A stretch of 64,000 bases of DNA, taken from the IMG/VR virus record IMGVR_UViG_3300027708_000032, positions 1-64,000 of that record. One strand, 5' to 3'. Below the pieces are notes generated by a model. That model saw nothing but the letters and a program-made list of their open reading frames with translations, ran no database searches and was not told where the DNA came from. Shown here in pieces: positions 4,829 through 52,616 of the stretch. How positions within the stretch are numbered: the first letter of the stretch is position 1; every line of letters begins with the position of its first letter. Position numbers and translations under genes: made by a program. This DNA comes from a virus.

Positions 4829-4856
4829 AGGGCTTAAAATTTAAGGGTTAATAAAA

Positions 4857-6107
4857 TTATCGTTTAAAAATATTTTGTGGTCTAGCTATTTTTCTAGACT
4901 TTGTTTGTTCTTCTTCTTCATATGTAGAAGCATACTTACGAGACTGTTCTGTTTTGAGCTGTCTCACTGTTTGTTCTACTGCTGCATTCTTTCCCTGTTT
5001 TCTTAAAGAATCTCTATAATCATCAGGGTTAGATAGTAACCAAAGAGCTTCTGCAATCAATGGATAGTTAGGTTCTACAAACTGATACTTCTCTAAAAGG
5101 TGTCCCAACAAGTTAGTTGGTTTACCAGATATAGAAGGATACTGAGGTTGAACCAATCCACTATATAACTGAGCTTGAACTTTTTTATCTAGTTTCAGTC
5201 CGTTAATTTCTGCAGGTCTAAGAGCTTCAAAGACATTCTTCATGTACGCATCTGCTGCGTTTTCTTGTTGTTGTCTTTTATATTCTTGTTCAGCTAACTG
5301 AGCTTGAACAATCTGTTCGTGCATAGAATCAAGCTTTGGCTTAAACTGCTTAGCTTTCTTTTCAAGTACACCAAGATCTTTCCATGTTACAACTTCTTCT
5401 TCTATTTCTTCAGGAGATCCAAAGTTTGTAGCTTGTAAATATTGTCTAACAATGAACTCTTGATCATTATCATCTCTAGGATCCATTTCTCTTACAGCTT
5501 CCACTTGAGCTAAAGCAGCAAATAATCCTTTAAGATCAGAACCACCATCTGCTACATATTTAGCAGCATATTGTAATTCTTCTGGAAGACTTTGAAAGAA
5601 CTCAGCTGGTGTTGATGCAGCCACCTCTTGTTTAAGATTATCTACATTAGCTTTCCAAAGTTCTTCTACGTCTTTTTCTCCAAGACCACCAAGATACTCA
5701 TCTAATGATTGTTTACCTTCATCGTAGTCATCAAAAGCAAACATCTCTTTAGACTCTATCCGTTTTTTTAAGAACTCTACCAATCCAGACTTTTCAGTCT
5801 TTGGTCTACCACCCTTTCCTTTAACTTCATCATCAAATGATTCTGGGGCTACCCCTTCATCTAAAATATCTGTAAGAAGTTCTTTTGCTGTTTCACGTGA
5901 AACTTCTTTTTCTTTTTCTTCTACACCTTTTTGAGATCCATCAGGATCTAAAAAAGAAAGATCAGCTCCTTTCTTTGTAAAGATGTTTGGTTTAATCTCT
6001 GTAGGTTCCCCAGACGGTGTTACAATACTATCGGCTCCAGGAGCTCCAGAAAATAAACTGTCAATGTCAAGGTCTATCTGTTGTACAGATGTTTGGTTAT
6101 CAATCAT
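4857..6107 (-). CDS. Scaffold-like capsid assembly protein
   Basis: A 416-residue acidic protein. The N-terminal 120 residues are disordered and Asp/Glu/Pro-rich, the centre (about 230-300) is a Gln/Glu/Lys-rich helix that could coil, and the C-terminus is short and basic (ending NIFKR). This polarity, and its position between portal and capsid genes, is typical of scaffolding proteins, whose basic tail binds the capsid protein. No protease motif was seen. The call is from architecture and order, not from a recognised family signature. Confidence 0.65.
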   Translation of the reverse strand: MIDNQTSVQQIDLDIDSLFSGAPGADSIVTPSGEPTEIKPNIFTKKGADLSFLDPDGSQKGVEEKEKEVSRETAKELLTDILDEGVAPESFDDEVKGKGGRPKTEKSGLVEFLKKRIESKEMFAFDDYDEGKQSLDEYLGGLGEKDVEELWKANVDNLKQEVAASTPAEFFQSLPEELQYAAKYVADGGSDLKGLFAALAQVEAVREMDPRDDNDQEFIVRQYLQATNFGSPEEIEEEVVTWKDLGVLEKKAKQFKPKLDSMHEQIVQAQLAEQEYKRQQQENAADAYMKNVFEALRPAEINGLKLDKKVQAQLYSGLVQPQYPSISGKPTNLLGHLLEKYQFVEPNYPLIAEALWLLSNPDDYRDSLRKQGKNAAVEQTVRQLKTEQSRKYASTYEEEEQTKSRKIARPQNIFKR

Positions 6108-6216
6108 AATGTTTGGTTTTTTGTTTATCTCTACAGTAAAAATATACTAATTTAAACTATAAAAATTTAAAATTATTTCTTTGAAATATCAAAGCAACGG
6201 ATTATAGAGCTATAAT

Positions 6217-8967
6217 TTATTTCTTTTTTTCCGCTGGCTTCTTTACGTCATACTTATTTTTATTTTCTCTAGCAATCTGTAATTGCTTATCAGCTATTTC
6301 TTTTTGTGTCTGAAGTCTACGTTCTTCTACATTAAGCTTTTGCTGAGTCATCATGGTCTTATTAGTTTCCTGATCTCTTTTAAGATTCATTTGATCTTGG
6401 TGTTGTTGATCAGCTCTAATATTTTCTAAAGCATCCATATAGTCAGACTGCTTATTTTCATTAATATCTACAGTGGAACCATAGCCAGCTGCTTTAATTT
6501 GTGCTTCTTCTATCTTAGCATCTCTATCTTTCTGGTTTTCCTCAGCTTCAAACTGTTGAGCCATCTGCATTTGTTGTTGCTGAGCCTGAAGCTGTTCTTG
6601 TTGCATCTGCTGCTGTTGCTGCATTTCAGCTTGTTTCTGAGCCTGCATTTTTTCTTCAGACTTCTTAAGAACACCAGTAAGTTCAGCAATACTCTCAGAC
6701 TTAATAACATTACCAAGATCATATATAGAAGCACCCATTGTGTTATTCTGTATAGCCAATTGCTTTAGTTGTTCTAATATAGCTCTAGAATTAGTCTTAG
6801 TGGTGCAGAATATATTAAGATCTCTCATCAAAAGATCTGTACCATTCATCTGAAAGTTTACTTTTTCGTCTGTACTTGTAATATACTGAAGACGCACACT
6901 AGGTTTTGTAGAATGATAATACTGAGCCAAGTCAGTACGCATCTGATGTACGCGAGGCATTAGGTTGTCACTATGCTGTACAAAGTATTGTTCTGTCTGA
7001 GCATAAGAAGCTGTCATAGCTTGTTCTATACCAGTGGCTGTTTGTTGTTGAGCAATAGGCTGACCCATACGTTGTTGATTAAGTCCTATTACAGCAAAAG
7101 CTTCATTCTTAAAATAGTTAGCCAACTGTATTCTAGACATTAAACGTTGTGTCTGTTCTAGATTTAACACTTGATAGTGTTGGAAAGATAGAGGATTTTC
7201 AGTGTTAGTAATAGTGGTATCCAATGGTAACATCTGAAAGTTCTTCATGGCTACATATGCCTTAGATAGATTGTTCTTTCCCCAATCTTCTCCTAATGAG
7301 TGACGTGGTAGGGCATTCTGATCTAACATGATAACAGTACCTAATTCATCTACTAAGATGTCAGCTATCTGATTATTTACAATATTATAACCAATCTGAA
7401 ATGGTTTCATTAAATCTACTAAACTTACTGATCTAGTATTTCTATCTCCAAATATACATCCCTCTACAGGAAGTTTACATCCATATATAGTGGAATCTCC
7501 TTTAAACTGAAAAGGTACACGTCCTGGTTTACCACCTTGTAAACCAAGATATATAGGATTGATACCTCCTGGATTATTCATACCCCAGAATGCAGGTCTG
7601 TTAGGACCAATTTTAATTCCACCCCAGGTTTCATTAATCCATATCCAATCTATATGCTCACCAAACATAAGATTGTCTTTTGTTTTCTGTTTGTAAACTA
7701 CAGTGTTATACTGAGGAGCATCTGTTACTTTATAAGTTTCATCTACAATATCTTGTACAAGATCTCCGTCTTGAGTTATTTTAGTAAGATGGCCCACCTT
7801 TCTTTGACTCTTCCAATAAATTGTAGAAACACGTAACATGTATGACTTACCAAAATCTTGAAGATCTTCAGAGTCTGATAAAATCCATTGTACAATATCT
7901 CCGAACTGAGATCCAGCATCGTACAAAGAAGTAAACTGTCTATAAGCCAACGAAGGCATTTGTGTGTTCCATTCATGAGATCTAGTTGGGTCATAGTATG
8001 TACCATCATTTTGGTATCCTTGTATTGCATATCCTGCAGATCTAGCTGGATATATAGCTTCTAAAGCTTCCAACTGATCTTGGTTCATCATCCAACCAAA
8101 CTTATCTATAACATCTGATATAGACATCATATCCATTTTACCCACCCAGTTACCCTGAGATACATAACGAATGTCTGGAGATTTATGATAAAATGTAAGT
8201 AGAGGATTCCAAAGTTCCACCTCATAATCATCTTCTTTCATATCAAAATGCCAGAACTCTCTGTCTGTAATAAGCATATCTCTAAATGCTCTTTCCTCTA
8301 ACTCTTGCATTTTAAATCTTTCCTCATCTACAGTTTTTTGATGAGCAGCCCACTCTTCTATCATAGAACGATAATCTTTTTTAAAGAATTGTTCTAATTC
8401 TGGAAGTTGTTTTATAGCATCAGGAGACATAGCTTTTTGAGCTTCTTCTGATTTAATATCTTGACCTTGATCAATAAGCTGTATTCCTATTTTTCTTTCT
8501 GCATCTTTAACTAAAATGTCTTCTAACATCTTACGTTTCTCTTCCAACATCTCATTATAAGAAGTGTCATCAGTAGCTCTAAACATAATTTTAGAAGTAC
8601 GTTTAGAAAACTCATTTGTAAGAACATTAACTACACTTGGAATAATAGGATAGAACTTAAGCTCAAATGCTGATACGTCTTCTTTTGTAAGAGTGTCAAT
8701 AAGATCTGCCATTTCATTATCTTCCTCTACAATATAATCCTGTTTGTCTATAATACCTTTAGCTAGTTTATAGTTCTTCATCAAACGTCTAGCGTTTCTT
8801 CTTAACTGTTTCATTCCCTGAAACTCTAACCAATCAAGATTCCAAGCTCTCCACTCTTCATCTTTTTCTTTTTCTGATACAAACTGAAAAGGCTGTATAA
8901 GAGTACCCATCTTGTTGTACTCCACCTTGGCTCCTTTCTTAAGTTGTAGGGCGTTATATATCTGCAT
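6217..8967 (-). CDS. Portal protein
   Basis: A 916-residue protein encoded directly downstream of the large terminase, as portals usually are. It is mostly helical with a beta-rich middle (about 240-530). A long Gln-rich helix near residues 765-815 (runs such as QQQQQMQQEQLQAQQQQ) and a Lys/Glu-rich C-terminal tail follow. Portals with extended Gln-rich C-termini that form the barrel are familiar in crAss-like and other podophage-type heads. The protein would form the dodecameric ring through which DNA is packaged and ejected. About 100 bases without a gene separate it from the scaffold gene. Confidence 0.8.
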   Translation of the reverse strand: MQIYNALQLKKGAKVEYNKMGTLIQPFQFVSEKEKDEEWRAWNLDWLEFQGMKQLRRNARRLMKNYKLAKGIIDKQDYIVEEDNEMADLIDTLTKEDVSAFELKFYPIIPSVVNVLTNEFSKRTSKIMFRATDDTSYNEMLEEKRKMLEDILVKDAERKIGIQLIDQGQDIKSEEAQKAMSPDAIKQLPELEQFFKKDYRSMIEEWAAHQKTVDEERFKMQELEERAFRDMLITDREFWHFDMKEDDYEVELWNPLLTFYHKSPDIRYVSQGNWVGKMDMMSISDVIDKFGWMMNQDQLEALEAIYPARSAGYAIQGYQNDGTYYDPTRSHEWNTQMPSLAYRQFTSLYDAGSQFGDIVQWILSDSEDLQDFGKSYMLRVSTIYWKSQRKVGHLTKITQDGDLVQDIVDETYKVTDAPQYNTVVYKQKTKDNLMFGEHIDWIWINETWGGIKIGPNRPAFWGMNNPGGINPIYLGLQGGKPGRVPFQFKGDSTIYGCKLPVEGCIFGDRNTRSVSLVDLMKPFQIGYNIVNNQIADILVDELGTVIMLDQNALPRHSLGEDWGKNNLSKAYVAMKNFQMLPLDTTITNTENPLSFQHYQVLNLEQTQRLMSRIQLANYFKNEAFAVIGLNQQRMGQPIAQQQTATGIEQAMTASYAQTEQYFVQHSDNLMPRVHQMRTDLAQYYHSTKPSVRLQYITSTDEKVNFQMNGTDLLMRDLNIFCTTKTNSRAILEQLKQLAIQNNTMGASIYDLGNVIKSESIAELTGVLKKSEEKMQAQKQAEMQQQQQMQQEQLQAQQQQMQMAQQFEAEENQKDRDAKIEEAQIKAAGYGSTVDINENKQSDYMDALENIRADQQHQDQMNLKRDQETNKTMMTQQKLNVEERRLQTQKEIADKQLQIARENKNKYDVKKPAEKKK

Positions 8968-8972
8968 GATTA

Positions 8973-9086
8973 TTAAATAGTTAGTGTGACAAATTCAGCT
9001 GTAGCTGTTGTAACATCAAATCTTACGTTTTCTGTAGACACGCTAACAGAAACATTTGTACTAGGTGTGATTGTAATAGTGTTCAT
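8973..9086 (-). CDS. Tiny beta-rich protein between terL and portal (37 aa)
   Basis: Reads MNTITITPSTNVSVSVS and continues as alternating Thr/Val residues to FVTLTI, so it is probably a pair of beta strands. It lies immediately after the terminase stop and five bases before the portal start. Such small Thr/Val-rich proteins can be decoration or joining proteins, but no family is recognised. Confidence 0.5.
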   Translation of the reverse strand: MNTITITPSTNVSVSVSTENVRFDVTTATAEFVTLTI

Positions 9087-9087
9087 T

Positions 9088-11292
9088 TTATCTCATGTTT
9101 TTAAATGCGTTACGAGAAGGTCTCATAAGACCATTACTTTTGGTAGAACTACCAATATGCCTAAATGGGCTATAGTTTAATTTACTAAATTTTTGGGAGT
9201 TAACCAAATTATCCTTCTTAACTTCTATACGTTTAGCTAGTCCTCTATTAGATTGTTGTACCTTGGCAAATGCTATAAGAGAACAGAATGCCACAAGTCT
9301 ATCCACGTTTAGTCCATCTCTGTATGCCTGCATCTCTTTAAGTAACATAACATCAGGTATACGCTGTACGCCATATATAGTTTTAACTATAGTTCCATCT
9401 GGTAAAGTTTCAGTGTCAAGCTCTTCTTGTAAAAACTCAATACCATATGATAGAATAGTACCCTTAAATAATGTACCTACGTTCTTCCAACCATACTGCT
9501 GAAATACATTTCTGTTTGCTCCTATGTCCTTGAGAAACAATATCATATCTTTTGGTACCAAATATTTCTGTCTCTTTCTAGATATCATGTATTGTATAAA
9601 CAAAGCTACGTTATTCTCCACTATAGTCCAGGCATTATACCATTCTATGAGTAGCTCTAGTCTTTCATGTGTTTTATTAATATCATCAAACCTACCACAC
9701 CATGAAGCAACTATAGCATCACGTTCTATTGTATTCTTCACCTTACCATCCCCATCATCCTGTATAATCTCCACTGGGTTTTTATATACGTATATAGAAC
9801 ATAATGAGTCTGATGTAGTAGTCTTACCCTCGCCTACGGGATCCACAGAAGCATAGTACATACCAAACGTAGGATCTTTGTGTGGTCTTTCATATACACA
9901 TATCACACCTTCTTTATCTTCTGTCTTCTTAGATATAGGAAATTCCATAATAGGAATCTTTCTAGATGGTTTGTCTATTATTTTACCCTCAGCATTTCTA
10001 CTAAGTTCTAAATATTCTACAGGATATTCTTTCTCTGCTATCCTTTGCATCTGTTTAGAAACAAGATGTGGAGGAAATACACTCACCTTTCTAGTAGCAA
10101 AAGCTTCTTCTATAGTACGTGGATGCTGAGATATGGTGAGCTGATACGCAGCTGGGTCCATATTCTTTTTAGCTTTCTCAAACTCTTCATCAAGAGCAGT
10201 TAAAGCTTCTTCCACTTTAGAGTTACCATAGTTGTCTATATATGGTGGCATAGACCACTGCTCAGGAATAAATAGTCCTGTCACACCAACACTACCATCT
10301 TTGTCTAACAGATTAGATGGCACACCATAAAAACCATTCTCTTCTGGCTGTAGTATATATTCTTTAAGAGGTTCACACTGATCAAGATCACCCACAGAAC
10401 CAGCAGCTATAAACTGTCCTGTAATCATATGACCAGATTTAAGAGCTGGTTTCATAAACCCATAAGTGTCATTCATCTTAGGAGCAATACCACCCTCTTC
10501 ATGAAAGAAATATGTTACGGGACCACCAACACCATTAGTTGGATCTTTTTCAAATGAATAAGATGATATGTTACTCTTAAGTCCTCTATATGTATCACGA
10601 TTATTTATTCTCACTTTAATACGCTGCATCCAAGCTCCCACCTTATCTGGTTCACTAGGTCTATACCAAGCAGTGTGTTCATTTAAAAAGTTCTTATATT
10701 CATCTAAGAACTTCCAGGATCCTTTCTCATTAATATAATCTTTCAAACTAGCTCCTATCTTTAACACGGCACCTTCTTCAAACCAATACTGGTTTATAAG
10801 CTTACCCATATGAAAATAAGAAGAAGCTATCTGACGTTTCTTTAAAATTACAGCATGCTTCCAATGTAGTTCTGCCAAGTGTTCATATAGAGCCATGTGA
10901 TATTGTGCATCTCTCACCTTAGCAAAGTCAAACCTCTTTTCTTCCTTATCATAAATAGGAAGAAAGTTAAGCCACATGTAATAGTCTCTACTAAGAAACC
11001 ATGACTTATCATTGTTCTTAATAATTACACCCTTACGACATTTATTCTTTTGATCATCCCAATAAGCTATAAAGTCTTTAGTTTTTACAGGAGCATCACA
11101 GTAATACTTTTGTTTCTGAAACTTTCTAGCCTCAGCATTAAATATTAAAGAACTTTCGTCAAACTCATACTTCCCTGGTTCTTTAAATATAGATAATAGA
11201 AAGTCTCTGAACTCTTCCCTTGTTTGAAACTCAGTAGTAGTCCAGAGACCATTCTCGTATGTAGGAACCTCTATAAAATTATTACTCAACAT
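9088..11292 (-). CDS. terL: Terminase large subunit (ATPase/nuclease)
   Basis: A 734-residue DNA-packaging motor. The ATPase half shows a degenerate Walker A, KKRQIASS (151-158), and a Walker B with catalytic Glu, YFFHEE (261-266). The C-terminal RNase H-like nuclease begins at YYASVDPVGEG with Asp484, followed by a VENN segment and a late Asp in LNVDRLVAF. The protein binds the portal, cuts concatemeric DNA and pumps it into the head. It overlaps nothing and starts at the base after the glycosyltransferase stop, so the two are probably coupled. No small terminase subunit is recognisable nearby; one of the short upstream genes may fill that role. Confidence 0.88.
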   Translation of the reverse strand: MLSNNFIEVPTYENGLWTTTEFQTREEFRDFLLSIFKEPGKYEFDESSLIFNAEARKFQKQKYYCDAPVKTKDFIAYWDDQKNKCRKGVIIKNNDKSWFLSRDYYMWLNFLPIYDKEEKRFDFAKVRDAQYHMALYEHLAELHWKHAVILKKRQIASSYFHMGKLINQYWFEEGAVLKIGASLKDYINEKGSWKFLDEYKNFLNEHTAWYRPSEPDKVGAWMQRIKVRINNRDTYRGLKSNISSYSFEKDPTNGVGGPVTYFFHEEGGIAPKMNDTYGFMKPALKSGHMITGQFIAAGSVGDLDQCEPLKEYILQPEENGFYGVPSNLLDKDGSVGVTGLFIPEQWSMPPYIDNYGNSKVEEALTALDEEFEKAKKNMDPAAYQLTISQHPRTIEEAFATRKVSVFPPHLVSKQMQRIAEKEYPVEYLELSRNAEGKIIDKPSRKIPIMEFPISKKTEDKEGVICVYERPHKDPTFGMYYASVDPVGEGKTTTSDSLCSIYVYKNPVEIIQDDGDGKVKNTIERDAIVASWCGRFDDINKTHERLELLIEWYNAWTIVENNVALFIQYMISRKRQKYLVPKDMILFLKDIGANRNVFQQYGWKNVGTLFKGTILSYGIEFLQEELDTETLPDGTIVKTIYGVQRIPDVMLLKEMQAYRDGLNVDRLVAFCSLIAFAKVQQSNRGLAKRIEVKKDNLVNSQKFSKLNYSPFRHIGSSTKSNGLMRPSRNAFKNMR

Positions 11293-20787: not shown

Positions 20788-21252
20788 ATGAAAAAATTCA
20801 TTCTTATTCTTGCAGCATGTGCTACAACTACCGCATATGCCCAGAAAACAAAAATGTCCTACAAAGTAGGTGTAGTAACTAGTCTACCAGCTAATGTTAC
20901 AAGCACAAGTATTAATGCTGGTAGCACAATGTTAGAAGCCTCTAAAAAGGTTTCTAAAAAGATTTCTGCAACAGCTAATGTAGGATACATTAGATTAACA
21001 GCTACAGATGCTCCAATTTCACAGATTCCTGTGTTTGTGGGTGCAAGATACTCTGTAACTGATCAGTGGTACTTTGGTGCTGCTGCAGGTGTTACCATCT
21101 CAACCAAAAAGGGATATGGTAGCACAGAGTTTGGCTACAGTCCATACTTAGGTTATCAGAAAGGACATATCAGCGTAGATGCTAGATATTACCTATCTGG
21201 ATTACAAACACCGTTGTCTACTATTGGACTAGTGTTTAGCTACAGTTTATAA
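20788..21252 (+). CDS. Outer-membrane beta-barrel protein with signal peptide
   Basis: A 154-residue protein with a Sec signal peptide, MKKFILILAACATTTAYAQ, with the cleavage expected after TAYA. The rest is a run of alternating beta strands with aromatic girdles (FVGARYSVTDQWYFGAAAG, YSPYLGYQKG) ending in FSYSL, the terminal aromatic/hydrophobic strand typical of outer-membrane barrels. An eight-strand barrel is likely. It is expressed from its own promoter box and ends at a long hairpin. A phage-made early outer-membrane barrel could mask the receptor against superinfection; this is an inference. Confidence 0.7.
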   Translation: MKKFILILAACATTTAYAQKTKMSYKVGVVTSLPANVTSTSINAGSTMLEASKKVSKKISATANVGYIRLTATDAPISQIPVFVGARYSVTDQWYFGAAAGVTISTKKGYGSTEFGYSPYLGYQKGHISVDARYYLSGLQTPLSTIGLVFSYSL

Positions 21253-42351: not shown

Positions 42352-43023
42352 TTATTTTAAGTCAAACAGAATTATTTCAGATTCTGCTGTAGGTATTATT
42401 TCTATTTTGTTTTCTTCTGTAAAACTTAGTCCATCTCCTTCTATTAACTTATAACCATTAATAGTTAGCTCACCTGATATAACGTATAGATAATAGCTCC
42501 GTGCATTATCTATTTCAAACGTATACTCTTCTGTAAAAATACCAGCTAGAAATCTAGCATCTTGTTTTATTGGTAGTTTCTCAGTGATGTTACAGAACTT
42601 GTTTAGTTTATCTTCTCTAGTAAACTGATGCCACTCATGTATTGGTTCAGTGTCTAATACATTAGGTCTTACCCACAGCTGTAAATACCTATTAGGTGTA
42701 TCTGATGCATTACCTTCTGTATGTTTTATACCACTACCAGCACTCATTCTTTGTACAGCACCAGCAGGTATATCTAAAACAGCACCATGACTATCTGTAT
42801 GTCTACATACACCCTCTACAACATACCCAAAGATTTCCATGTTCTTGTGTTCATGTATTGGAACATGACCACCTGGTTGCACCCTGTCATCATTAATAGT
42901 TTGCAGATCACTAAAGTGAATATACTTTCTATCAAAGTATCCAGGAAAGCTAAATGTTCTAAAAGAACTAATCCAGCTAGCTCTTGGGTTTCCTCTAGTA
43001 TGTGCAGGTCTATGCTTTATCAT
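42352..43023 (-). CDS. Pirin-family cupin protein
   Basis: A 223-residue bicupin with the pirin ligand set: His57 and His59 in IHEHKNMEIF, His101 and Glu103 in GIKHTEGN, and FGYVVEGVCRHTDSHG between them. Pirins bind Fe or another metal; some show quercetinase activity, others are redox-sensitive regulators. The C-terminal cupin (INGYKLIEGDGLSF) is more degenerate. The gene overlaps the endolysin by four bases, so it is a late gene. A phage pirin is unusual and was probably acquired from a host. Confidence 0.8.
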   Translation of the reverse strand: MIKHRPAHTRGNPRASWISSFRTFSFPGYFDRKYIHFSDLQTINDDRVQPGGHVPIHEHKNMEIFGYVVEGVCRHTDSHGAVLDIPAGAVQRMSAGSGIKHTEGNASDTPNRYLQLWVRPNVLDTEPIHEWHQFTREDKLNKFCNITEKLPIKQDARFLAGIFTEEYTFEIDNARSYYLYVISGELTINGYKLIEGDGLSFTEENKIEIIPTAESEIILFDLK

Positions 43024-43547
43024 GCCTCATTTACAGATATATCACCACCAATAGAAATAATTATTTTTCTAACATTGTCAGGTTGTAGATTATAAGCTGG
43101 TCTTCTAGCTTGTGAAAGTCTAGACTTTAAAATTCTTTTAATACACACTTTATTATCTTGGTTACCACCAAGTACATGATATGTTGTAGCATCTTCTGCT
43201 ACATATATCCCAACGTGTCCACCACCTTTTCTTGTGAATGTAACAACATCACCAAGCATAGGAGCTGACACCTTTACACCGAAATTATTCCAGTTGAGAG
43301 CACCAAGTGGGTTTAAAACCACAGGTCTTTCAGCTCTTTTCATAACTACAGCTATGTATAACCCACACCATGGAATTTCATCAGCTGTATATATACCACT
43401 AAGTCCTAACTCTTTAGCCCATCCAAGTATAACAGGGTTATGTTTAGAACCTACCACTTCTTGTGTACCATAAAGCTCAATAGCTTTTAGAAGATGCCGT
43501 GGAGCATCTTCTAAAGCTAGCCATTGATATGTTTGGGGTAGTTTCAT
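43020..43547 (-). CDS. Endolysin, NlpC/P60-CHAP type (TIGR02594-like)
   Basis: A 175-residue papain-like peptidoglycan hydrolase. Cys61 in IPWCGLYIA, His111 in GGGHVGIYVA and Asn129 in LGGNQDN form the catalytic triad. The N-terminal PRHLLKAIELYGTQEVVGSKHNP and LGWAKELGL are typical of the TIGR02594 lysin family. No signal peptide, so release depends on a holin, and candidates flank it. It overlaps the DUF1003 gene and the pirin gene by four bases each. Confidence 0.82.
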   Translation of the reverse strand: MKLPQTYQWLALEDAPRHLLKAIELYGTQEVVGSKHNPVILGWAKELGLSGIYTADEIPWCGLYIAVVMKRAERPVVLNPLGALNWNNFGVKVSAPMLGDVVTFTRKGGGHVGIYVAEDATTYHVLGGNQDNKVCIKRILKSRLSQARRPAYNLQPDNVRKIIISIGGDISVNEA

Positions 43548-43948
43548 TTCTTATTTAATTTTTTAATTTCTTTTAAGATCTTACTATGATCTTCTATAGC
43601 TTTTCTATCAAGCTTTAAATCTTCTTCAAGTTTCATAAGAAGAACTAATACAGCTTGTAATAACTCTTTAGAATCTTCATCAACCTCAAGATCTTTTTTC
43701 ATATGTTCTCTATCTTTCTCAGCTTGTCTATTACCTGACATAAGAATCATAGGTGTAGCATAAGCTGCTTGTGCTGATAGAAACAAGTTCATTAATATAA
43801 AAGGATATGGATCAAAATCTACAACATTGTCTAAATTAATCAGCATCCATACTATAAGTATCACTGATTGTAAAATTATAAATGTCCAGCTTCCTACAAA
43901 GCTAGCTATGTTGTCAGCTAGATTTATTCCAAATTCTTTTAGTTTCAT
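43544..43948 (-). CDS. DUF1003 membrane protein, holin candidate
   Basis: A 134-residue DUF1003 protein: two membrane segments (WTFIILQSVILIVWMLI and YPFILMNLFLSAQAAYA) and the family signature MILMSGNRQAEKDR, followed by a charged coiled coil. It overlaps the endolysin start by four bases. In bacteria the role of DUF1003 is not settled. In this position, coupled to the endolysin, it could act as the holin. That is inferred from context. Confidence 0.75.
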   Translation of the reverse strand: MKLKEFGINLADNIASFVGSWTFIILQSVILIVWMLINLDNVVDFDPYPFILMNLFLSAQAAYATPMILMSGNRQAEKDREHMKKDLEVDEDSKELLQAVLVLLMKLEEDLKLDRKAIEDHSKILKEIKKLNKK

Positions 43949-45648
43949 TGTACAATAAATTTAACCACTGTACGTTTGTTATTTATAATATAATAGAGAG
44001 CATACACACCACGCTCAAGATTTAAACTAAAGTCTTTGCTGAGTACACCATCCACACTTTTAATTCTTTCACTATACACTGTTCTACCAGTCATATCAAT
44101 AATGTTTACATTAGCATATGCTGTCTTAGTGATGGTACTTTGTACATTAAGTGTAAAGTTTCCATTATTAGGAATAGGATAGAGAGCAACTAAGTCTTTT
44201 TGTAAATCTTCTACACCTATTCTTGTTCCAAATGCACAATTAATATGTGTAAGTGTTTTAGATATTGGTGTACTAAGTGTACCACATAATGTAGTGGCTT
44301 TAGCTGTTAAAGGACCACCTGTGTAACCAGTGTTAAACTGAAGTGTTACAACAGAACTATCTGCATTAGCATATGTAAATGTTGTATTAGCTGGTTTAGT
44401 CCATCTAAAAGCTACCCCCGGAGGAATTGATACATTTGGAACAGCAGAGATTACAGAATATGTAGCACTGTTACCAATACATCCATTCCAAAATCCTGTA
44501 GATGAAGACATATCTAAAGGTTTAGATGGTGCCACTGCTAAACTCTTAGCTGCACTAACTATATTACAAGCACTTTGACATTTAACTGTAATAGCTCCTG
44601 TACTAAAAGTAGAACCAAATCTTATAGTGACAGAAGAACTATCTGTGTTAGCAGCTGTAATTGTGCTACCTACAGGAACTGTCCATCTAAATACACTATT
44701 AGCCACTTGAGAAGAAGTTGGAATAGCTGCACTTGTTGTATATGTAAATGTACTATTAGGACAAGGTGCTACAGAACCAACTATACTAACTGGAGCAGGA
44801 GGTAATGCTCTTGTAAAAGCTGATGACACTGTAGGAATACTTCCTGCATTATTACTTAATGTAAGATATACAGAACCTGCAGCTTTAATTGCAGCTGTAA
44901 TACTATTAGTACCTTGACCACTTGTTGCACTGATTATATAATTACCAGTACCTGATATACTCCAAGCATAATTAACACCACTTTCTACAGGAACAGAGAA
45001 TGTTCTTAAAGTGTCACATAGTCCAGAAACTGGAGTTTGTGTAATCACTTGTGTAGTTGGCACTGTAGCAGTTGGAGGAGGAGCTACATATTTAGTAGAA
45101 CTAAATGTTGTAGTGTATACATAATCCTGAGCTTCATTACCATTATTATTACCAGCCACTGCAGAAACATAAAACTTTACTTTACTTGGAGCTACACTTG
45201 GTGCATTCCATGTAAGTCCTGTGTATGTGTAGTTATTAGCCACTGTAGTAACAGCAGCATTAGCATGGCTTAATTCATATGTTGCACCACCAGCTGTTCC
45301 TTTAATAGAACTGTTAGCGTTAGTGCTAGTCCATGTACCAACAACAGTGTTAGTGGTTGTGTCTACAGCTTTAATAGCATATCCCCACACCTTTCTATCA
45401 GCTGTTCCATGAGCTATCTTAATACTAAAAGGGTAAGCTACACCTGCAGTGAATGTAGTAGGTAGGCCAGTGAGAGTGATGTTACCACCACCAGAGTTAA
45501 GACTATAGTCACCATGACAATTAGTACAGTTTCTTGTAGATCCTGTAGATGTTGGAGCCATAGTGTAACCTGTAGGACAGTTTGGATTGCTTAGTACAAA
45601 AGAAAAAGCAATAATAACAAAACTTAATAAGTACAATACTTTTTTCAT
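43945..45648 (-). CDS. Exported protein with CxxCH, PKD-like repeats and T9SS sorting domain
   Basis: A 567-residue protein with a signal peptide (to about residue 20). A CTNCH motif follows at 41-45 inside a choice-of-anchor-V/reelin-like domain (about 22-195), with GVAYPFSIKIAHGTADRKV. Then come three PKD-like beta-sandwich units (200-470) with NSTFTYTTSA- and GNSATYSV-type starts. The last 85 residues form a type-A T9SS sorting domain: LYPIPNNGNFTLNV, NVNIIDMTGRTV and a C-terminal YIINNKRTVVKFIVQ. In the host such proteins are carried across the outer membrane by T9SS. Here the gene is coupled to DUF1003 in a late phage block. Confidence 0.82.
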   Translation of the reverse strand: MKKVLYLLSFVIIAFSFVLSNPNCPTGYTMAPTSTGSTRNCTNCHGDYSLNSGGGNITLTGLPTTFTAGVAYPFSIKIAHGTADRKVWGYAIKAVDTTTNTVVGTWTSTNANSSIKGTAGGATYELSHANAAVTTVANNYTYTGLTWNAPSVAPSKVKFYVSAVAGNNNGNEAQDYVYTTTFSSTKYVAPPPTATVPTTQVITQTPVSGLCDTLRTFSVPVESGVNYAWSISGTGNYIISATSGQGTNSITAAIKAAGSVYLTLSNNAGSIPTVSSAFTRALPPAPVSIVGSVAPCPNSTFTYTTSAAIPTSSQVANSVFRWTVPVGSTITAANTDSSSVTIRFGSTFSTGAITVKCQSACNIVSAAKSLAVAPSKPLDMSSSTGFWNGCIGNSATYSVISAVPNVSIPPGVAFRWTKPANTTFTYANADSSVVTLQFNTGYTGGPLTAKATTLCGTLSTPISKTLTHINCAFGTRIGVEDLQKDLVALYPIPNNGNFTLNVQSTITKTAYANVNIIDMTGRTVYSERIKSVDGVLSKDFSLNLERGVYALYYIINNKRTVVKFIVQ

Positions 45649-45649
45649 A

Positions 45650-46108
45650 TTACATTTTTTTTATGTAGAGATCTCTATAATGTAGCATTTCCCCTGTAAG
45701 AATAAATGCTCCTCCAATTAGAACAATATCCCAAAGAGTATTCTTCACTTGGTTCTTTCTATATTTTTTAGAAAGAATATTAAAGTTATTTTCTAAAGGA
45801 GCATATGCACCTTTATACATATTAACTTGTTCTGTAAGGTTCTTAACTTGATCTTTTAAGTTAGTTTCTGAAGATTTGTATAAGTCTATAGCATTCATCT
45901 GATCAAACACTTGTCTTTTTAACAATGCTGATTCAGTGGATGTAACAGATAACAAAGCTTTAGCAGAGTCACCAATTAAAAGATCTGTTTGAATACTTTT
46001 AATGACAGGATAAGGGATGCAAACATCCCTCACCGTGTCAGTATTCTTTTGAGCATTACAAATAAATGCTAAAACTAATAGTAAGATTGTAGTTGTTGAT
46101 TTTTTCAT
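45650..46108 (-). CDS. Spanin-like exported coiled-coil protein (152 aa)
   Basis: An N-terminal signal peptide (MKKSTTTILLLVLAFICNA), a periplasmic coiled coil (about 65-125), then a C-terminal transmembrane segment (LWDIVLIGGAFILTGEM). Such an arrangement can bridge the membranes, as a spanin must, and proteins of this kind with a QTDLLIGDSA-like start recur in Bacteroidota phages. It lies beside the endolysin block. The spanin role is inferred. Confidence 0.6.
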   Translation of the reverse strand: MKKSTTTILLLVLAFICNAQKNTDTVRDVCIPYPVIKSIQTDLLIGDSAKALLSVTSTESALLKRQVFDQMNAIDLYKSSETNLKDQVKNLTEQVNMYKGAYAPLENNFNILSKKYRKNQVKNTLWDIVLIGGAFILTGEMLHYRDLYIKKM

Positions 46109-46113
46109 ATAAA

Positions 46114-46635
46114 TTATTGTTTAAGATTACCTGATAAACTAAAGGTATTACTCCCTTGACATATAACTGTAATAACACCATATTGTGTTTGTGAACGTCT
46201 GTAATTAAATACACTGTGAATAGTCACACCACTAGCAGCTGCAAAAGTAATAGTTCCACCAGCTTGTAACACCTTACAAGTCCAACCATCAGGTAAACCT
46301 GCAGGAAGAGTAATTGTAGAGACACCACCAGTAGTCATACTAACTAGTTTATTAAAATCACCAGTTACTACAGTGTAGATGCTACCTGTTTGTGTATTTC
46401 CAGCAGGGTAAGCTGTAGCTCCACCAACTAAAGCAGCAAGCTGAGTCATAGCTGTAGCTGTCATATAACCATTTGCAGATGTTGTAGCAGCTTGCATAAA
46501 CAAAGTGTCTTTTACAGCACCACCAGTTCTAACTACTCCTAAGGGAGATTTAACAACTGTTGTGTCATAAACCATAGTTTGTGCAGAAGCACCAAAAGAG
46601 AAAAGAATACCAAGAATAAATAATAGTTTTTTCAT
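46114..46635 (-). CDS. Exported tail-fibre-like beta protein (173 aa)
   Basis: A Sec signal peptide (MKKLLFILGILFSFGASAQ), then Gly/Thr-rich beta structure: ATTSANGYMTATAMTQLAAL is a fibre-like connector, and TITLPAGLPDGWTCKVLQ with ITFAAASGVTIHS resembles the tip domains of phage fibres. A signal peptide on a fibre-like protein is odd for a virion part and suggests export by the host. Confidence 0.6.
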   Translation of the reverse strand: MKKLLFILGILFSFGASAQTMVYDTTVVKSPLGVVRTGGAVKDTLFMQAATTSANGYMTATAMTQLAALVGGATAYPAGNTQTGSIYTVVTGDFNKLVSMTTGGVSTITLPAGLPDGWTCKVLQAGGTITFAAASGVTIHSVFNYRRSQTQYGVITVICQGSNTFSLSGNLKQ

Positions 46636-46659
46636 GTGTTTATTTTTTTTTTAGATTAA

Positions 46660-46821
46660 TTAAACTGTTTTAGCATCTTGTGCTGAAGCTCCCAAGAAGA
46701 ATAAACCAATAGCTTGACATACTTGTCCTACTATTTGTAACACTCCTGTTTGAGAATTTACTAAGTAGCTACCCACTGCAGCTAAAATACCACCGATTGT
46801 TGTTTTCCAATTTGCTTTCAT
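46660..46821 (-). CDS. Small holin-like membrane protein (53 aa)
   Basis: Starts MKANWKTTIGGILAAVG and continues with a second hydrophobic part (VGQVCQAIGLFFLGASA), ending in a charged QDAKTV. From memory, very similar short proteins (NWKTT-GGI-AA-G) are common beside endolysins in Bacteroidota phages. A two-segment holin is the simplest reading. The ORF is too short for most gene callers. Confidence 0.6.
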   Translation of the reverse strand: MKANWKTTIGGILAAVGSYLVNSQTGVLQIVGQVCQAIGLFFLGASAQDAKTV

Positions 46822-46825
46822 AATT

Positions 46826-49240
46826 TTAATTTTTAAATTTTAAACGTGATTTAATAATAGAAGAAATATATGTAACTGTAAAGTTAAAGTCATGTGTACA
46901 ACCATTAGCATCTTTAGCTGATATAGTATGATCACCAGAAGTTACACCAGTGAAAGATGTACCTGATTGATAAGCTCCACCATCTAGACTATACGTCTTA
47001 GCTCCTGTACCACCTGTTACACTAACTGTCACAGTAGTAGTCCCACCTTGAACAGTGATAGGAGTGAAAGATACTGTTCCTGTTACATCTGTAGGCTGTG
47101 ACAAAGTAACAGATATATTAGCGGTGGAACCAACAGCATCACTTATATTGTAAGACGTACTTCCTGCTGCTTGTATAAATGTTCCAGTTCCATTATACGG
47201 AGGAACACCACCTGTAGCACCAACTGTAACATTTGTTGTACCATTAAAACATGTAATTGTTCCTGTTGTTACAGTGGCTGTTAATGATGTTACACTAGTT
47301 GATGGTTTGTACAAACCAATAAATGGTGTAATACCAACAATACTATTACCCTCAAAGTCTGTAGTAAAACCTGATATAGCCACGCCATTATTACGAGCAT
47401 AGCTTGTGTCATTTAAATGTAAGTCCCAGTTCTCTGGATATATACTATTAAGAGTATCTTTAAATAAAAGACCACTAGTCATAGCTCTTTCTTTAGTACC
47501 TCTATAATTAAGTGTACCACCAACAGCAGATGCATATCTAGCCCCACCTAAATAATAATAAATATTAGCAGAACGCTTGTATCTATTTCTATCATATAAT
47601 GCTTGTATACCCGTAGTCCAATAAAATATATTATTTCTATTGTCAATCATTGTATCTATGTTAGATCCCCATAGTGTAGCATCCCCTGAATACTGCATAG
47701 TAAATCTAGTTCCACCATAGTTTTGATAAGCAGGATTACTAGGATTACTCCATGTTGTATTAGATACAGGAAGATAAAAACCTGACATACCAGAACATGT
47801 ATAGTTTGATTCTGATCTTGTAGATGGATCACTAAGTGTAAGACTAAGACCATTAATAGCAGTGACTGTTACTGTTTTATATACTATACTAGCAAGATCA
47901 TCATCATCTGTAAACCAAACTGAACCAACGAATATACCTGTGGCATTACTCACTGTAATAACATTAGAACCTGCTGTAGTACTAACTGTGGGTCTTAATG
48001 GATAGCCTGGAGGATTAAATGTATTAGCTATATCTCTACAGAACCACCAAGGTTGTGTTGTACCAGGTCTAAAACCTTGTCCATCTCCATATACATCTTT
48101 ACCAAAACCTAAACCATTCAGTCTATCATTATTATTAGATATAATTACATTATTCCAATGTGATAAATGATGATTATTTCCTTGGAAAGCATCACCTACA
48201 CTACCATGAATATAAGCAAACTGACCACAGTTTATTATTTTATTAAAAGCAAATGTATCATACTGTGAACCTGAGTTACTATCATTTCTATCAAGGTTAC
48301 CAATCTCATATGCTCCACCACAATCTATAATAGTATTATAACAAACTTTAGAGTTGTATAGATTAAATATATCCATAGCTACACCACCTAAACCTTGACA
48401 AGATCCTATTCTACCACTCTTACCCCAAGCTCCTTTAATATAGTTATAACTAATCTCTGTTCTAATAGCTGCAATACCCTCTATAGCACCAGCCATAATA
48501 TCATGTGTACCAGCTGTATCTGCAGAACTCTTGAAGTTAGTGAACCTGTTATTTGTTATCTTAGAATCAACAGTAGCCATTCCTTGTATACCATACATAG
48601 TATTGTTAAACACACAGTTTCTCACTGTAAATCTAGTGACCATGTATTTTCTTCTACTAGTATCTCCATAACTATTTTTAAGACCACCACTTGTACCTTG
48701 TGTCCATTCTCCTAATATCCAACCACCAGAATAACCTGGATTAGCTTTATCAGTTTCAGGTACTCTATAATCATTAGATTGTATACCATCTATGATGATA
48801 TCATGTACGCCTGCAAAATATACTATACCTCTACCTTCTCTTGATATCCATGTACTTACAGGATATGTAGCACTTGGATATAACCAGTTTGGCAAACTTC
48901 CTGTACCATAATTAGTAATTACTATAGGTTGACTAGGTGTACCTGACGGAGCTGTAAAATATGTACCACCATCATTAGCCCATTGCATACTAGAAAACCC
49001 ATTAACAAACCCATTGGCAAATACATCACCTCTTTTAAATGCTATAGTATCACCAGGTAAAAAAGTACTAACTCCACTAGTTACACATCTTTGTAGTTTT
49101 TGTAAAGTCTGCCATGGTGTAGCTTGGTTCTGAGCTTGTGTAGATGTATAGTTGTCATTACCAGTAGAAGAACTGAAATAAAACTTTCTACCAAATACTA
49201 TGGTAGGCAATAAAAATAAAATCAGTAAGAGTTTTTTCAT
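46826..49240 (-). CDS. Exported beta-helix protein with SprB-like repeats
   Basis: An 804-residue protein with a signal peptide (MKKLLLILFLLPTIVFG). The start of the mature part, FYFSSSTGNDNYTSTQAQ then PWQTLQKLQ, is the usual opening of pectate-lyase-like right-handed beta-helices. Repeated NN-rich turns continue to about residue 640. The last 150 residues hold two repeats like those of the gliding adhesin SprB (ITCFNGTTNVTVGATGG, and VTGGTGAKTYSLDGG ... HTISAKDANGC). It could be a receptor-binding or polysaccharide-degrading protein, or a surface mimic. It lacks the C-terminal sorting domain of T9SS. Confidence 0.72.
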   Translation of the reverse strand: MKKLLLILFLLPTIVFGRKFYFSSSTGNDNYTSTQAQNQATPWQTLQKLQRCVTSGVSTFLPGDTIAFKRGDVFANGFVNGFSSMQWANDGGTYFTAPSGTPSQPIVITNYGTGSLPNWLYPSATYPVSTWISREGRGIVYFAGVHDIIIDGIQSNDYRVPETDKANPGYSGGWILGEWTQGTSGGLKNSYGDTSRRKYMVTRFTVRNCVFNNTMYGIQGMATVDSKITNNRFTNFKSSADTAGTHDIMAGAIEGIAAIRTEISYNYIKGAWGKSGRIGSCQGLGGVAMDIFNLYNSKVCYNTIIDCGGAYEIGNLDRNDSNSGSQYDTFAFNKIINCGQFAYIHGSVGDAFQGNNHHLSHWNNVIISNNNDRLNGLGFGKDVYGDGQGFRPGTTQPWWFCRDIANTFNPPGYPLRPTVSTTAGSNVITVSNATGIFVGSVWFTDDDDLASIVYKTVTVTAINGLSLTLSDPSTRSESNYTCSGMSGFYLPVSNTTWSNPSNPAYQNYGGTRFTMQYSGDATLWGSNIDTMIDNRNNIFYWTTGIQALYDRNRYKRSANIYYYLGGARYASAVGGTLNYRGTKERAMTSGLLFKDTLNSIYPENWDLHLNDTSYARNNGVAISGFTTDFEGNSIVGITPFIGLYKPSTSVTSLTATVTTGTITCFNGTTNVTVGATGGVPPYNGTGTFIQAAGSTSYNISDAVGSTANISVTLSQPTDVTGTVSFTPITVQGGTTTVTVSVTGGTGAKTYSLDGGAYQSGTSFTGVTSGDHTISAKDANGCTHDFNFTVTYISSIIKSRLKFKN

Positions 49241-49243
49241 AGT

Positions 49244-49594
49244 TTAATAGTTATAACGTTGTTTAAAAAATGTATCAAGATCTGATGGGGTAGATGTTCT
49301 AGACTTAGTTATCTTATCACTGTACACTTTCTGAATAACCACTCTAGATGTTCCTACATCTGTAAGTCTGTTTTCTATATCTTCAATTCTAGCATCATAC
49401 TGAGCTGTAAGACTATCTATCTCTATCTGTTTTTTAATAAGTTCTAAGTTATTAGCCTCAAGATCTTCTATTTTCTTTTGTAGTTCTTTAGTGTCTTGTG
49501 GTAATACTACTTTAGGAGTGAGGACATTTACAAGAATAATAACTCCTATTACTATTCCAAGTCCAATTAATGCATACTTTGCGTACTTGTTCAT
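49244..49594 (-). CDS. Membrane-anchored coiled-coil protein (116 aa)
   Basis: An N-terminal membrane anchor (ALIGLGIVIGVIILVNVL) is followed by a coiled coil (DTKELQKKIEDLEANNLEL) and a basic end. This is the layout of an inner-membrane spanin or of a minor tail component. Lies directly before the beta-helix gene. Confidence 0.55.
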   Translation of the reverse strand: MNKYAKYALIGLGIVIGVIILVNVLTPKVVLPQDTKELQKKIEDLEANNLELIKKQIEIDSLTAQYDARIEDIENRLTDVGTSRVVIQKVYSDKITKSRTSTPSDLDTFFKQRYNY

Positions 49595-49606
49595 ATATGT
49601 TTGTTT

Positions 49607-50023
49607 TTAATTGTATACTTTTATTTCTATAGTAAATGAAGTATTAGCAACAACATCTATTCTAGATCCTTGATAGTTTGTAGTTAAAAAATAAATTTGA
49701 TCTGTATCAATATAGCCATATTGAATATGTAATGGATACGCAGTTCCATACGAAATAATTGATGTATTTAATACAGAAGTTTTATTAGGAGTAAATAACC
49801 CCTCTCCAAAACATTTAATTAATGGACCAGAACCCTCATAAGTCCAAACAATATTTCCAAGTGTATTTTCTATTACTGTTACTATAGGATCACTTGTACC
49901 ATTTGGTTTTACTAAAGCTGTATACACTTTATAAGAAGGGTTATTTACAGTATGAGCAACAGCTCTTATTCTTCTGTCATTGTAGTTAAGTCTACCAAAT
50001 ATGTCTGTATAGTTAGGATTCAT
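49607..50023 (-). CDS. Beta-rich protein (138 aa), possible fibre tip or baseplate
   Basis: A soluble, beta-rich protein (VYTALVKPNGTSDPIVTVI, then YFLTTNYQGSRIDVVAN) with no signal peptide. Asn/Tyr/Gly-rich strands fit a small virion protein; no family is recognised. Overlaps the preceding gene by 11 bases. Confidence 0.55.
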   Translation of the reverse strand: MNPNYTDIFGRLNYNDRRIRAVAHTVNNPSYKVYTALVKPNGTSDPIVTVIENTLGNIVWTYEGSGPLIKCFGEGLFTPNKTSVLNTSIISYGTAYPLHIQYGYIDTDQIYFLTTNYQGSRIDVVANTSFTIEIKVYN

Positions 50024-50339
50024 GCTCTATATATTTTTTAATGTCAAAGATTTCTTCATGCTTAAAATACTTATCATAAGATGACTGCCTTACTGTTTCA
50101 ACATTACCTACTAACTTCTTATTAAACGTAGCCTGCTCTAACATTTTTACATCTTTCTCAAGACTTTCAATCTTAGTCTTGTCTATATTAGACTGAGCTA
50201 ATAAAGCTTTAACATCTGATCTTAGCTCCGAGACATCTCTCCAGATTAACATTGCTAAGATACTAAGTAAAGATGGAAATAAATATACTTTTACAGTATT
50301 TCCAATGTTATGTTTTTGGGAGTTTTGCACAGGTGTCAT
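50013..50339 (-). CDS. Membrane coiled-coil protein, first gene of the lysis block (108 aa)
   Basis: A membrane segment near residues 15-33 (VKVYLFPSLLSILAMLIW) followed by a coiled coil with LRSDVKALLAQSNIDKTK. This layout suits an inner-membrane subunit (spanin or holin regulator). The shared AT-rich element lies 62 bases upstream. Confidence 0.55.
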   Translation of the reverse strand: MTPVQNSQKHNIGNTVKVYLFPSLLSILAMLIWRDVSELRSDVKALLAQSNIDKTKIESLEKDVKMLEQATFNKKLVGNVETVRQSSYDKYFKHEEIFDIKKYIEHES

Positions 50340-50924: not shown

Positions 50925-51468
50925 TCCAAACCAAATGTATTTTTTAGACTGCTGTAGATCCAGCATTAAACCAAGTAGTATCATCAATCAGGATGCTGAG
51001 AAAATGATATGTGTAGCTAAATGTCTTATTAATGAACAAGGTGAGCTTACTAACCTTGGAGCCACTGTATTAAATGAGTTTGAAGCTTATTTAGTTAAAC
51101 GTAAGAAAGCTATAACAAGAGAAGTTTTAGGTCCAGATTTTAAAGCTAAAGTAGAAGAGTACATAAAATTATGGCCTGCTATGACGCTTCCTTCTGGAAA
51201 AGCAGCTAGACAAGGTAAAAATGATATAGAAAAAAAGTTTGTAGTTTTCTTTAAAGACTATCCAGAGTATGATTGGAATCTAGTATTGGATGCCACTCAA
51301 ATTTATGTACAAGAGTTTGAAAAGAAAGATTATAGATTTATGGTAAACAGTTTATATTTTATTAGTAAAACTAATAATATGACTAAAGATTCTACATCTG
51401 ACTTAGCCAGTAGATGTCAGGTTATATTAGACAACCCTGCAGAATTAAACAAAATTGAACAAAGATGA
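50881..51468 (+). CDS. Replication-module protein, possible helicase loader (195 aa)
   Basis: A helical protein of 195 residues in the place where phages often carry a helicase loader or DnaD-like protein, between an initiator and DnaB. The C-terminal half (AMTLPSGKAARQGKNDIE, then YPEYDWNLVLDATQIYV) has the aromatic helical look of such adaptors. It overlaps the initiator by 44 bases. No ATP-binding motif. Function is inferred from order. Confidence 0.55.
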   Translation: MSHQLWSTLIKHGISPNQMYFLDCCRSSIKPSSIINQDAEKMICVAKCLINEQGELTNLGATVLNEFEAYLVKRKKAITREVLGPDFKAKVEEYIKLWPAMTLPSGKAARQGKNDIEKKFVVFFKDYPEYDWNLVLDATQIYVQEFEKKDYRFMVNSLYFISKTNNMTKDSTSDLASRCQVILDNPAELNKIEQR

Positions 51469-51536
51469 TAAAATAATTTTGGTGTTTTAAAAAAAACTAT
51501 ATACATTTACAGTACAAAAAGCAAAATCACAATAAC

Positions 51537-52577
51537 ATGTCACAAGCAGAGAGACACTACGGTGCAAAGAAGTATTCTGAAATACTCAACGAAGGTCTTC
51601 AATATATAAAAGATAGAAAGTCTGGTAAGATAAAATCTTTTAAAACCCCATGGAATAGTTTAAACAACGCAGGTGTTGGTGGTCTTGAGTGGGGAGCTAT
51701 GCTAACAATAGCAGCACGTCCAGGTGCAGGTAAGACAATGTTAGTTTCTCATATTATAAGAGAGAGTAAAATTTTAAATCCCACACAAGATTTTAATATT
51801 TTAGAATTTCAGTTTGAGATGGCTCCAAAACAAACTGCATCTAGAGATTTTGCTGCTCTTACAGCTTTAGACTATGATATAGTGTTAAGTACTAGACAAG
51901 CAGTAGATGACTATTCTGTAGAGATGATGGAAAAATATGTAAAAGAAACTGAAAGGCTTGAGGGACAAGGTGTACATAGACTACAGATTAATAATCCTCT
52001 TACACATAAAGACATGGAAAAGGCTATTCATCATTATTATAATGCAATGGGTGGTAAACCTATGATTGTTACTATAGATCATAGCTGGCTTATGAAAAAA
52101 GACGTAGGAGATAAAGAGAAGATTAACACTCTTTATAACACTGTAGAAATGCTTATGCAGGTTAAAAATAAGCTACCTATTATTGTACTTATGATATCTC
52201 AGCTTAACAGAGATATAGAAGATCCAGGAAGAAAAACACCAGGTAGTATTCAAAACTACCCAACTAGTAGTGACATATTTGGTGGTGATGCTCTTATGCA
52301 GGGTTCAGATATGGTGCTAGTTCTTACTAGACCATTTAGATCAGAGATCAGATGTTATGGTCCTAAACAATTTCAAACTACTAAAGAAGATATATTCGGT
52401 CATATTCTAAAATCTAGAAATGGTTCTGATGATGATAATATCATTTACATGAAAGGAGACTTTAAGAAACAGAGTATGATTGAAAGTCCTCCTCCTATAG
52501 CTAGTAACCCCTCAGGTACCTTTGTAGCAAGGAGTAGAAGTAGATTACAGTCCACAGATGCTGATATAAACATTTAA
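51537..52577 (+). CDS. dnaB: DnaB-type replicative helicase (short form)
   Basis: 346 residues with the RecA-like core: Walker A AARPGAGKT (59-67), then a LEFQFEMAPKQTASRD motif, Walker B IVTIDHSWLM, and IVLMISQLNRDIEDPG, the motif with conserved Gln. The C-terminus ends in an Arg-rich linker. The N-terminal primase-interacting domain is missing, so it is shorter than cellular DnaB. It would unwind DNA ahead of the polymerase, working with the Toprim primase downstream. Confidence 0.82.
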   Translation: MSQAERHYGAKKYSEILNEGLQYIKDRKSGKIKSFKTPWNSLNNAGVGGLEWGAMLTIAARPGAGKTMLVSHIIRESKILNPTQDFNILEFQFEMAPKQTASRDFAALTALDYDIVLSTRQAVDDYSVEMMEKYVKETERLEGQGVHRLQINNPLTHKDMEKAIHHYYNAMGGKPMIVTIDHSWLMKKDVGDKEKINTLYNTVEMLMQVKNKLPIIVLMISQLNRDIEDPGRKTPGSIQNYPTSSDIFGGDALMQGSDMVLVLTRPFRSEIRCYGPKQFQTTKEDIFGHILKSRNGSDDDNIIYMKGDFKKQSMIESPPPIASNPSGTFVARSRSRLQSTDADINI

Positions 52578-52616
52578 CATTTTCACCCAATACATTCACA
52601 ATTTAAAACAAACAAC

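Follow-up and report, generated by a model that had tools for sequence, protein, structure and literature searches.

A beta-helix protein with a signal peptide and SprB-type repeats, encoded near a T9SS sorting-domain protein in a distant crAss-like phage

Introduction

SprB, the gliding adhesin of Flavobacterium, is a giant adhesin that is secreted by the T9SS. For phages, the open literature searched holds a single published case of T9SS cargo, that of Cryophage, called 'unique' in the accessible part of the 2020 account (PMC7468147, Nat Commun). According to the same text, T9SS type A sorting domains occur on phage proteins, some of which are carbohydrate enzymes, and closely related phages differ strongly in their cargo genes; the text makes no mention of SprB repeats. 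Phage genes with Bacteroidota-type signal peptides are known from Porphyromonas gingivalis phages, where the Q rule has been described for exported proteins (PMC10367356); the accessible part of that article describes neither SprB repeats nor T9SS domains for them.

The locus described here lies in a window of 64,000 bases, the first part of a 128,065-base IMG/VR virus record, and its genes are named by their lower coordinate. Like Cryophage as described, it has a phage-encoded type A sorting domain (43945) and a gene that is hypervariable between close phages (46826), but the phage and the proteins are different, and here the SprB-type protein lacks a sorting domain while its neighbour has one. 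The signal peptides recall those of the Porphyromonas phages. Proteins of Ferruginibacter and Chitinophagaceae (L021, L027) have a homologous beta-helix with SprB-type repeats; their repeats are more numerous and their sorting domain passes the cut-off, whereas the phage members stand apart, with the C-terminus lost or altered. With Flavobacterium SprB itself only the repeat type is shared, the window protein having 804 residues, two repeats and no sorting domain. A right-handed beta-helix is also found in the GH136 lacto-N-biosidase LnbX (6kqs) and in PL6 lyases; the cap can be aligned to 6kqs (E 2e-10), the alignment being limited to this cap and the likeness extending to no demonstrated catalytic site.

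Genome and probable host

Three genes near the start of the window were assigned by PHROG family matches:
3209-4828, major head protein
6217-8967, portal
9088-11292, large terminase

Judged from its gene content, the window is from a tailed phage. An origin as a bacterial-contig artefact was rejected, given these three genes at 3209-11292. The terminase is ~25% identical to those of crAss-like phages, and Flavobacterium and Cellulophaga phages are also among its matches. The window belongs to a distant crAss-like phage, for which these terminase matches make a member of the phylum Bacteroidota the most likely host. The minus strand holds the two structural regions and the block at 42352-50339, the plus strand the regions between, a layout that fits with late expression. 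Outside the block, a 154-aa ORF at 20788-21252 has a signal peptide (AYA/Q; here and below a slash marks the cleavage point) and is possibly a small outer-membrane barrel. In the second half of the genome, beyond the window, one minus-strand ORF of 5424 aa occupies 67232-83506 of the record (G000).

A gene block rich in signal peptides

The block contains the following features, with the basis of each in brackets:
43020-43547, minus strand, CHAP / TIGR02594 peptidoglycan-hydrolase-like protein (TIGR02594 97 bits, cut-off 70.55; phrog_1259, phrog_9589)
43544-43948, minus strand, DUF1003 membrane protein (PF06210, 104 bits)
43945-45648, minus strand, second exported-type protein, with a T9SS type A sorting domain, 567 aa (PF18962, TIGR04183)
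43948-44184, minus strand, the type A sorting domain of this protein, residues 489-567 (profile matches)
45650-46108, minus strand, exported-type protein with signal peptide, coiled region and C-terminal hydrophobic segment (sequence)
46114-46635, minus strand, protein with a signal peptide and a C-terminal module known from the ends of phage virion/minor tail proteins (phrog_21510, 2e-12; phrog_18179, 1.5e-9)
46660-46821, minus strand, small hydrophobic ORF of 53 aa, possibly holin-like, between the 46114 and 46826 ORFs (sequence)
46826-49240, minus strand, exported-type beta-helix protein with two SprB-type repeats, 804 aa (ORF open over 804 codons; homologues in 13 viral loci and Chitinophagaceae)
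46871-47287, minus strand, its two SprB-type repeat units, residues about 652-790 (BLASTP to L021; bacterial-unit profile)
47309-49189, minus strand, its right-handed beta-helix body, residues 18-644 (homologues match PF13229, TIGR03804, PelN and GH136 6kqs)
49190-49240, minus strand, its Sec signal peptide, residues 1-17 (sequence and simple predictor; relatives)
49244-49594, minus strand, spanin-like protein with N-terminal membrane anchor and coil (phrog_739 Rz-like spanin, E 7.7e-4)

The block ends, at 42352-43023, with a gene for a Pirin-family protein (PF02678, PF17954), unusual in a phage. The DUF1003 gene is missing at the corresponding place in L003, the closest relative, where its neighbours flank no counterpart.

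Signal peptides, which were called with a simple in-house predictor and not SignalP, are present in four ORFs of the block (43945, 45650, 46114 and 46826), i.e. 4 of 11 genes compared with 7 of 144 in the genome (p about 6e-4, an approximate value, the clear cases having been picked by eye). The original prediction had seen a cluster of three Sec-exported proteins here; the cluster stands, and the count becomes four with the addition of 45650. The signal peptides of 45650 and 46114 fit the Bacteroidota Q rule (...A/Q). The C-terminal module of 46114 also occurs at the C-termini of Gordonia phage minor tail proteins.

The T9SS sorting domain of the 43945 protein, which the original prediction did not name, is over both curated cut-offs (PF18962, 29.7 bits against 27; TIGR04183, 30 against 23). 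A tblastn search of this protein against annotated phages found nothing, and an AlphaFold2 model, made from only 3 sequences, reached a pLDDT of 49. In two related viral loci (L004, L005) the beta-helix gene is one of a run of signal-peptide genes, together with T9SS type B proteins that score 46.3 and 46.7 bits, above the cut-off; one L005 neighbour with a signal peptide belongs to the chondroitinase-B family (PF14592, 1.5e-59). With the type A domain on 43945, and with type B domains close to the beta-helix genes of these two loci, the case for a use of host surface pathways is stronger than was originally known.

Architecture of the beta-helix protein

The 46826 protein begins with a clear signal peptide (MKKLLLILFLLPTIVFG/RKF), directly after which the mature chain starts with the beta-helix cap. 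There is no N-terminal virion attachment domain, the mature chain opening at this cap. Taken alone, the protein gives no Pfam or NCBIfam match above cut-off. Among 18 aligned homologues (window included), six match PF13229 Beta_helix (best 2e-9) and four match TIGR03804 parallel beta-helix, while the pectate lyase PelN is matched by one of the 18 (2.4e-8). Between the family profile and the GH136 enzyme 6kqs there is a match at 2.1e-10 that covers the N-terminal cap only. Parallel-beta-helix-like motifs number 6 against 1.6 expected, a count reached in 10 of 2000 shuffles. A right-handed beta-helix is therefore a prediction well supported through homology, as had been proposed from the sequence together with the signal peptide. 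Residues D157, D247, E312 and E584 are invariant across 24 homologues. The AlphaFold2 model of the 804-aa protein, from only 4 sequences, has a pLDDT of 31. Searching annotated phages with tblastn found nothing. The repeat region has a weak match to PHROG 26672, a 'virion structural protein' (E 1.5e-4).

SprB-type repeats

Two C-terminal repeats like those of SprB had been predicted. A direct search with PF13573 is weak, giving 12.4 bits against a curated cut-off of 28, and membership was judged instead by homology to repeats that pass the curated cut-off. Residues 559-789 are 38% identical to the Ferruginibacter protein L021, and residues 653-790 are 47% identical to its later repeats (BLASTP E 1e-30); L021 is itself over the cut-offs for SprB (61.8 bits) and for a T9SS sorting domain (34 bits, cut-off 27). 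Against a profile built from bacterial repeat units only, the C-terminus of the window protein reaches 133 bits, and 0 of 1000 shuffles are reported. One phage homologue, L012, is over the PF13573 cut-off (42.3 bits). Since they are homologous to Ferruginibacter repeats that pass PF13573, the repeats of 46826 are clearly to be classed as SprB-type by homology despite their sub-threshold score: the predicted repeats are borne out, although the profile search proposed for them falls short of its cut-off.

Relatives and exchanged C-termini

Matches to 46826 were found in 13 viral-contig loci, of which L019 and L020 match over the N-terminal cap only and L014 ends at the contig end. A further locus comes from a Ferruginibacter genome (L021), and 14 of 244 sampled genomes of the Ferruginibacter family (Chitinophagaceae) contain matches. 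Each of the nine full-length phage relatives has retained the signal peptide, and bacterial homologues have one as well. Of the two findings named at the outset as speaking against the original prediction, repeats foreign to SprB and relatives that lack the signal peptide, neither was made. In an unrooted tree of the beta-helix, ten phage sequences (window included) are split from 14 bacterial ones by a long 100/100 branch. This phage-only group, with its open frames and conserved signal peptides, points to long maintenance. The phages differ in type: the window has a crAss-like terminase, while the records of L004, L012 and L018 carry a Terminase_6N protein.

Two bacterial homologues, L021 and L027, are over both the SprB and the sorting-domain cut-offs, and the others whose C-terminus lies inside the fetched locus mostly have sorting-domain-like ends, as judged by eye. 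The bacterial homologues are predicted T9SS cargo. In the phage clade the C-termini are unrelated between members. They consist of SprB units in the window, L003 and L012; of a thrombospondin-like stretch and a sub-threshold sorting-domain-like end in L004, L005 and L013 (and, by eye, L015); of both kinds in L017; and of neither in L016 and L018. The CTD-like ends of L004, L005 and L013 score 15.7-17.7 bits in whole-protein scans, L005 and L013 also 16.7-21.4, against a cut-off of 27. L016 and L018 have basic ends (RLRTKFVNKN and RVRKRFVNKN), as does the window protein (IIKSRLKFKN).

Very long, fibre-like ORFs precede the homologue in L016, L018 and L019 (L016:2621-6850, L018:155-3337, L019:4990-8001); they have Bacteroidota-type signal peptides ending ...A/Q or ...G/Q. 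These ORFs match no PHROG, the term 'fibre-like' referring to sequence look and position, and tblastn with that of L016 retrieved nothing beyond a short stretch of one EBPR podovirus. In L016 a major tail protein gene is also near the homologue, upstream of it.

Variability between close phages

The genes flanking 46826 are mostly 93-99% identical in DNA between the window and L003. Within the gene, the first 40 residues are identical and the repeats are 93% identical at the protein level, and the beta-helix body shows 70-90% DNA identity (mostly 70-87%). Because L003 groups largely with L004 at residues about 40-250 and with the window elsewhere, the pattern can be taken as a sign of recombination within the body. 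By this comparison, the beta-helix body is a hypervariable, apparently recombined island inside well-conserved flanks. A second stretch of low identity to L003 (62-82% DNA) lies among replication-side genes at 51101-52600.

T9SS sorting domains in other viral contigs

No T9SS sorting domain of type A (PF18962/TIGR04183) or type B (PF13585) was found on the 46826 protein, and no type B domain in the genome of the window. Type B domains do occur in at least 80 IMG/VR viral contigs or loci (L081-L160), many of them behind signal peptides. Since a terminase is over the cut-off in 18 of the 32 long contigs tested, many of these contigs are real phages; some may be misassigned. Two uncultured phage genomes of 635-642 kb (LR756502.1, LR745206.1) also have type B matches. 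The published single case of phage T9SS cargo, as far as the accessible literature goes, is thereby suggested to belong to a phenomenon common in uncultured Bacteroidota phages.

Four proteins of 107-108 aa consist of a signal peptide and a bare type B domain only (L132:5941-6264, L138:5941-6264, L156:5941-6264 and L144:5950-6276). They score 46.5-58.2 bits with CHU_C (cut-off 27), and a terminase occurs in the L132 and L156 records. Proteins of this kind could compete for the host T9SS or jam it.

Proposed role and alternatives

The architecture, the homology, the conserved signal peptide, the co-location and the T9SS domain on 43945 can be read in the sequence, and we infer the export, timing, location, substrate and biological role of the 46826 protein. 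The preferred reading, with a probability of roughly 0.55, is that of a host-derived, Sec-exported beta-helix protein of carbohydrate-active type, which would enter the periplasm in late infection, be displayed at the surface or released by lysis, and have a polysaccharide as its target. It is kin to Bacteroidota surface proteins laid out as signal peptide, beta-helix, SprB repeats and T9SS sorting domain; the phage lineage would have retained the first two of these modules, while its C-terminal part was exchanged or lost. In late infection it would probably pass through Sec into the periplasm and, being without a sorting domain, would probably wait there, to reach the surface by an unrecognised route or to be released at lysis with the adjoining lysis-like genes. 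Its job would most likely be to bind or cut polysaccharide of the host surface or matrix, which may help progeny to escape, or lower re-adsorption and superinfection. Surface display of 46826 is doubtful because of the missing T9SS domain. The 43945 protein seems a better candidate for T9SS display and would most likely reach the surface through the host T9SS.

Several features argue for the preferred reading: the signal peptides in relatives, the lack of an attachment domain, the alignment of the cap to the enzyme 6kqs, bacterial kin that are predicted T9SS cargo, the block rich in signal peptides, two of them (45650, 46114) following the Q rule, the domain on 43945, the chondroitinase-B-family neighbour in L005 and the hypervariable body. 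Against it stand the missing T9SS domain, the fibre-like neighbours in L016, L018 and L019, the weak match to PHROG 26672 and the lack of an established catalytic site. The fibre-like neighbours and the weak PHROG match, and the fact that beta-helices are typical of phage tail spikes, bring in a virion tail spike or depolymerase, in which the signal peptide would be a relic or serve an assembly route of Bacteroidota phages. The major tail protein gene near the L016 homologue and the virion-type module on 46114 also speak for it. The original argument, by which a tail spike can do without a signal peptide, leaves a virion role standing, as the long ORFs of L016, L018 and L019 carry signal peptides themselves. 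Even so, a spike with no N-terminal attachment domain, with C-termini unrelated from member to member and, in the window, with its gene outside the structural gene regions is rather unlikely, and the fibre label of the long ORFs comes from look and position, with no PHROG match. A host-derived exported protein of carbohydrate-active type is more likely than a virion tail spike.

Routing of 46826 itself to the surface by the T9SS is improbable, whether through an unrecognised signal, such as its SprB end or the basic IIKSRLKFKN terminus, or in partnership with the cargo protein 43945. It would agree with the T9SS-cargo character of the bacterial relatives, with the CTD-like ends kept in L004, L005 and L013 and with the basic end common to L016 and L018; however, the window protein has no curated T9SS domain, every CTD-like end in this phage clade is under the cut-off of 27, and SprB repeats alone are not known to act as a sorting signal. 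A captured host gene carried as a passenger, with no role in infection, would account for the clear bacterial kinship and the mosaic structure. This is very improbable because of the deep phage-only group: a long branch sets ten homologues from phages of different types apart from the bacterial ones, and all ten have open frames and have conserved their signal peptides.

Under the preferred reading of an exported, host-derived protein, infected cells probably export virus-encoded versions of host surface proteins, and the proteins of the block may remodel or imitate the host surface, as was first proposed. A wider scheme is offered tentatively, and is itself doubtful: Bacteroidota phages may have repeatedly captured gliding-adhesin and T9SS modules, down to a bare signal peptide and sorting domain, as a surface-remodelling or secretion-jamming system of which the SprB beta-helix protein would be one member. 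The data suggest that a repeat family of host adhesins is also used by phages. If these proteins are exported, they would offer a way, directly open to testing, for a phage to alter the surface of the cell it infects, and would bear on superinfection exclusion, biofilm escape and the co-evolution of phages and gliding bacteria.
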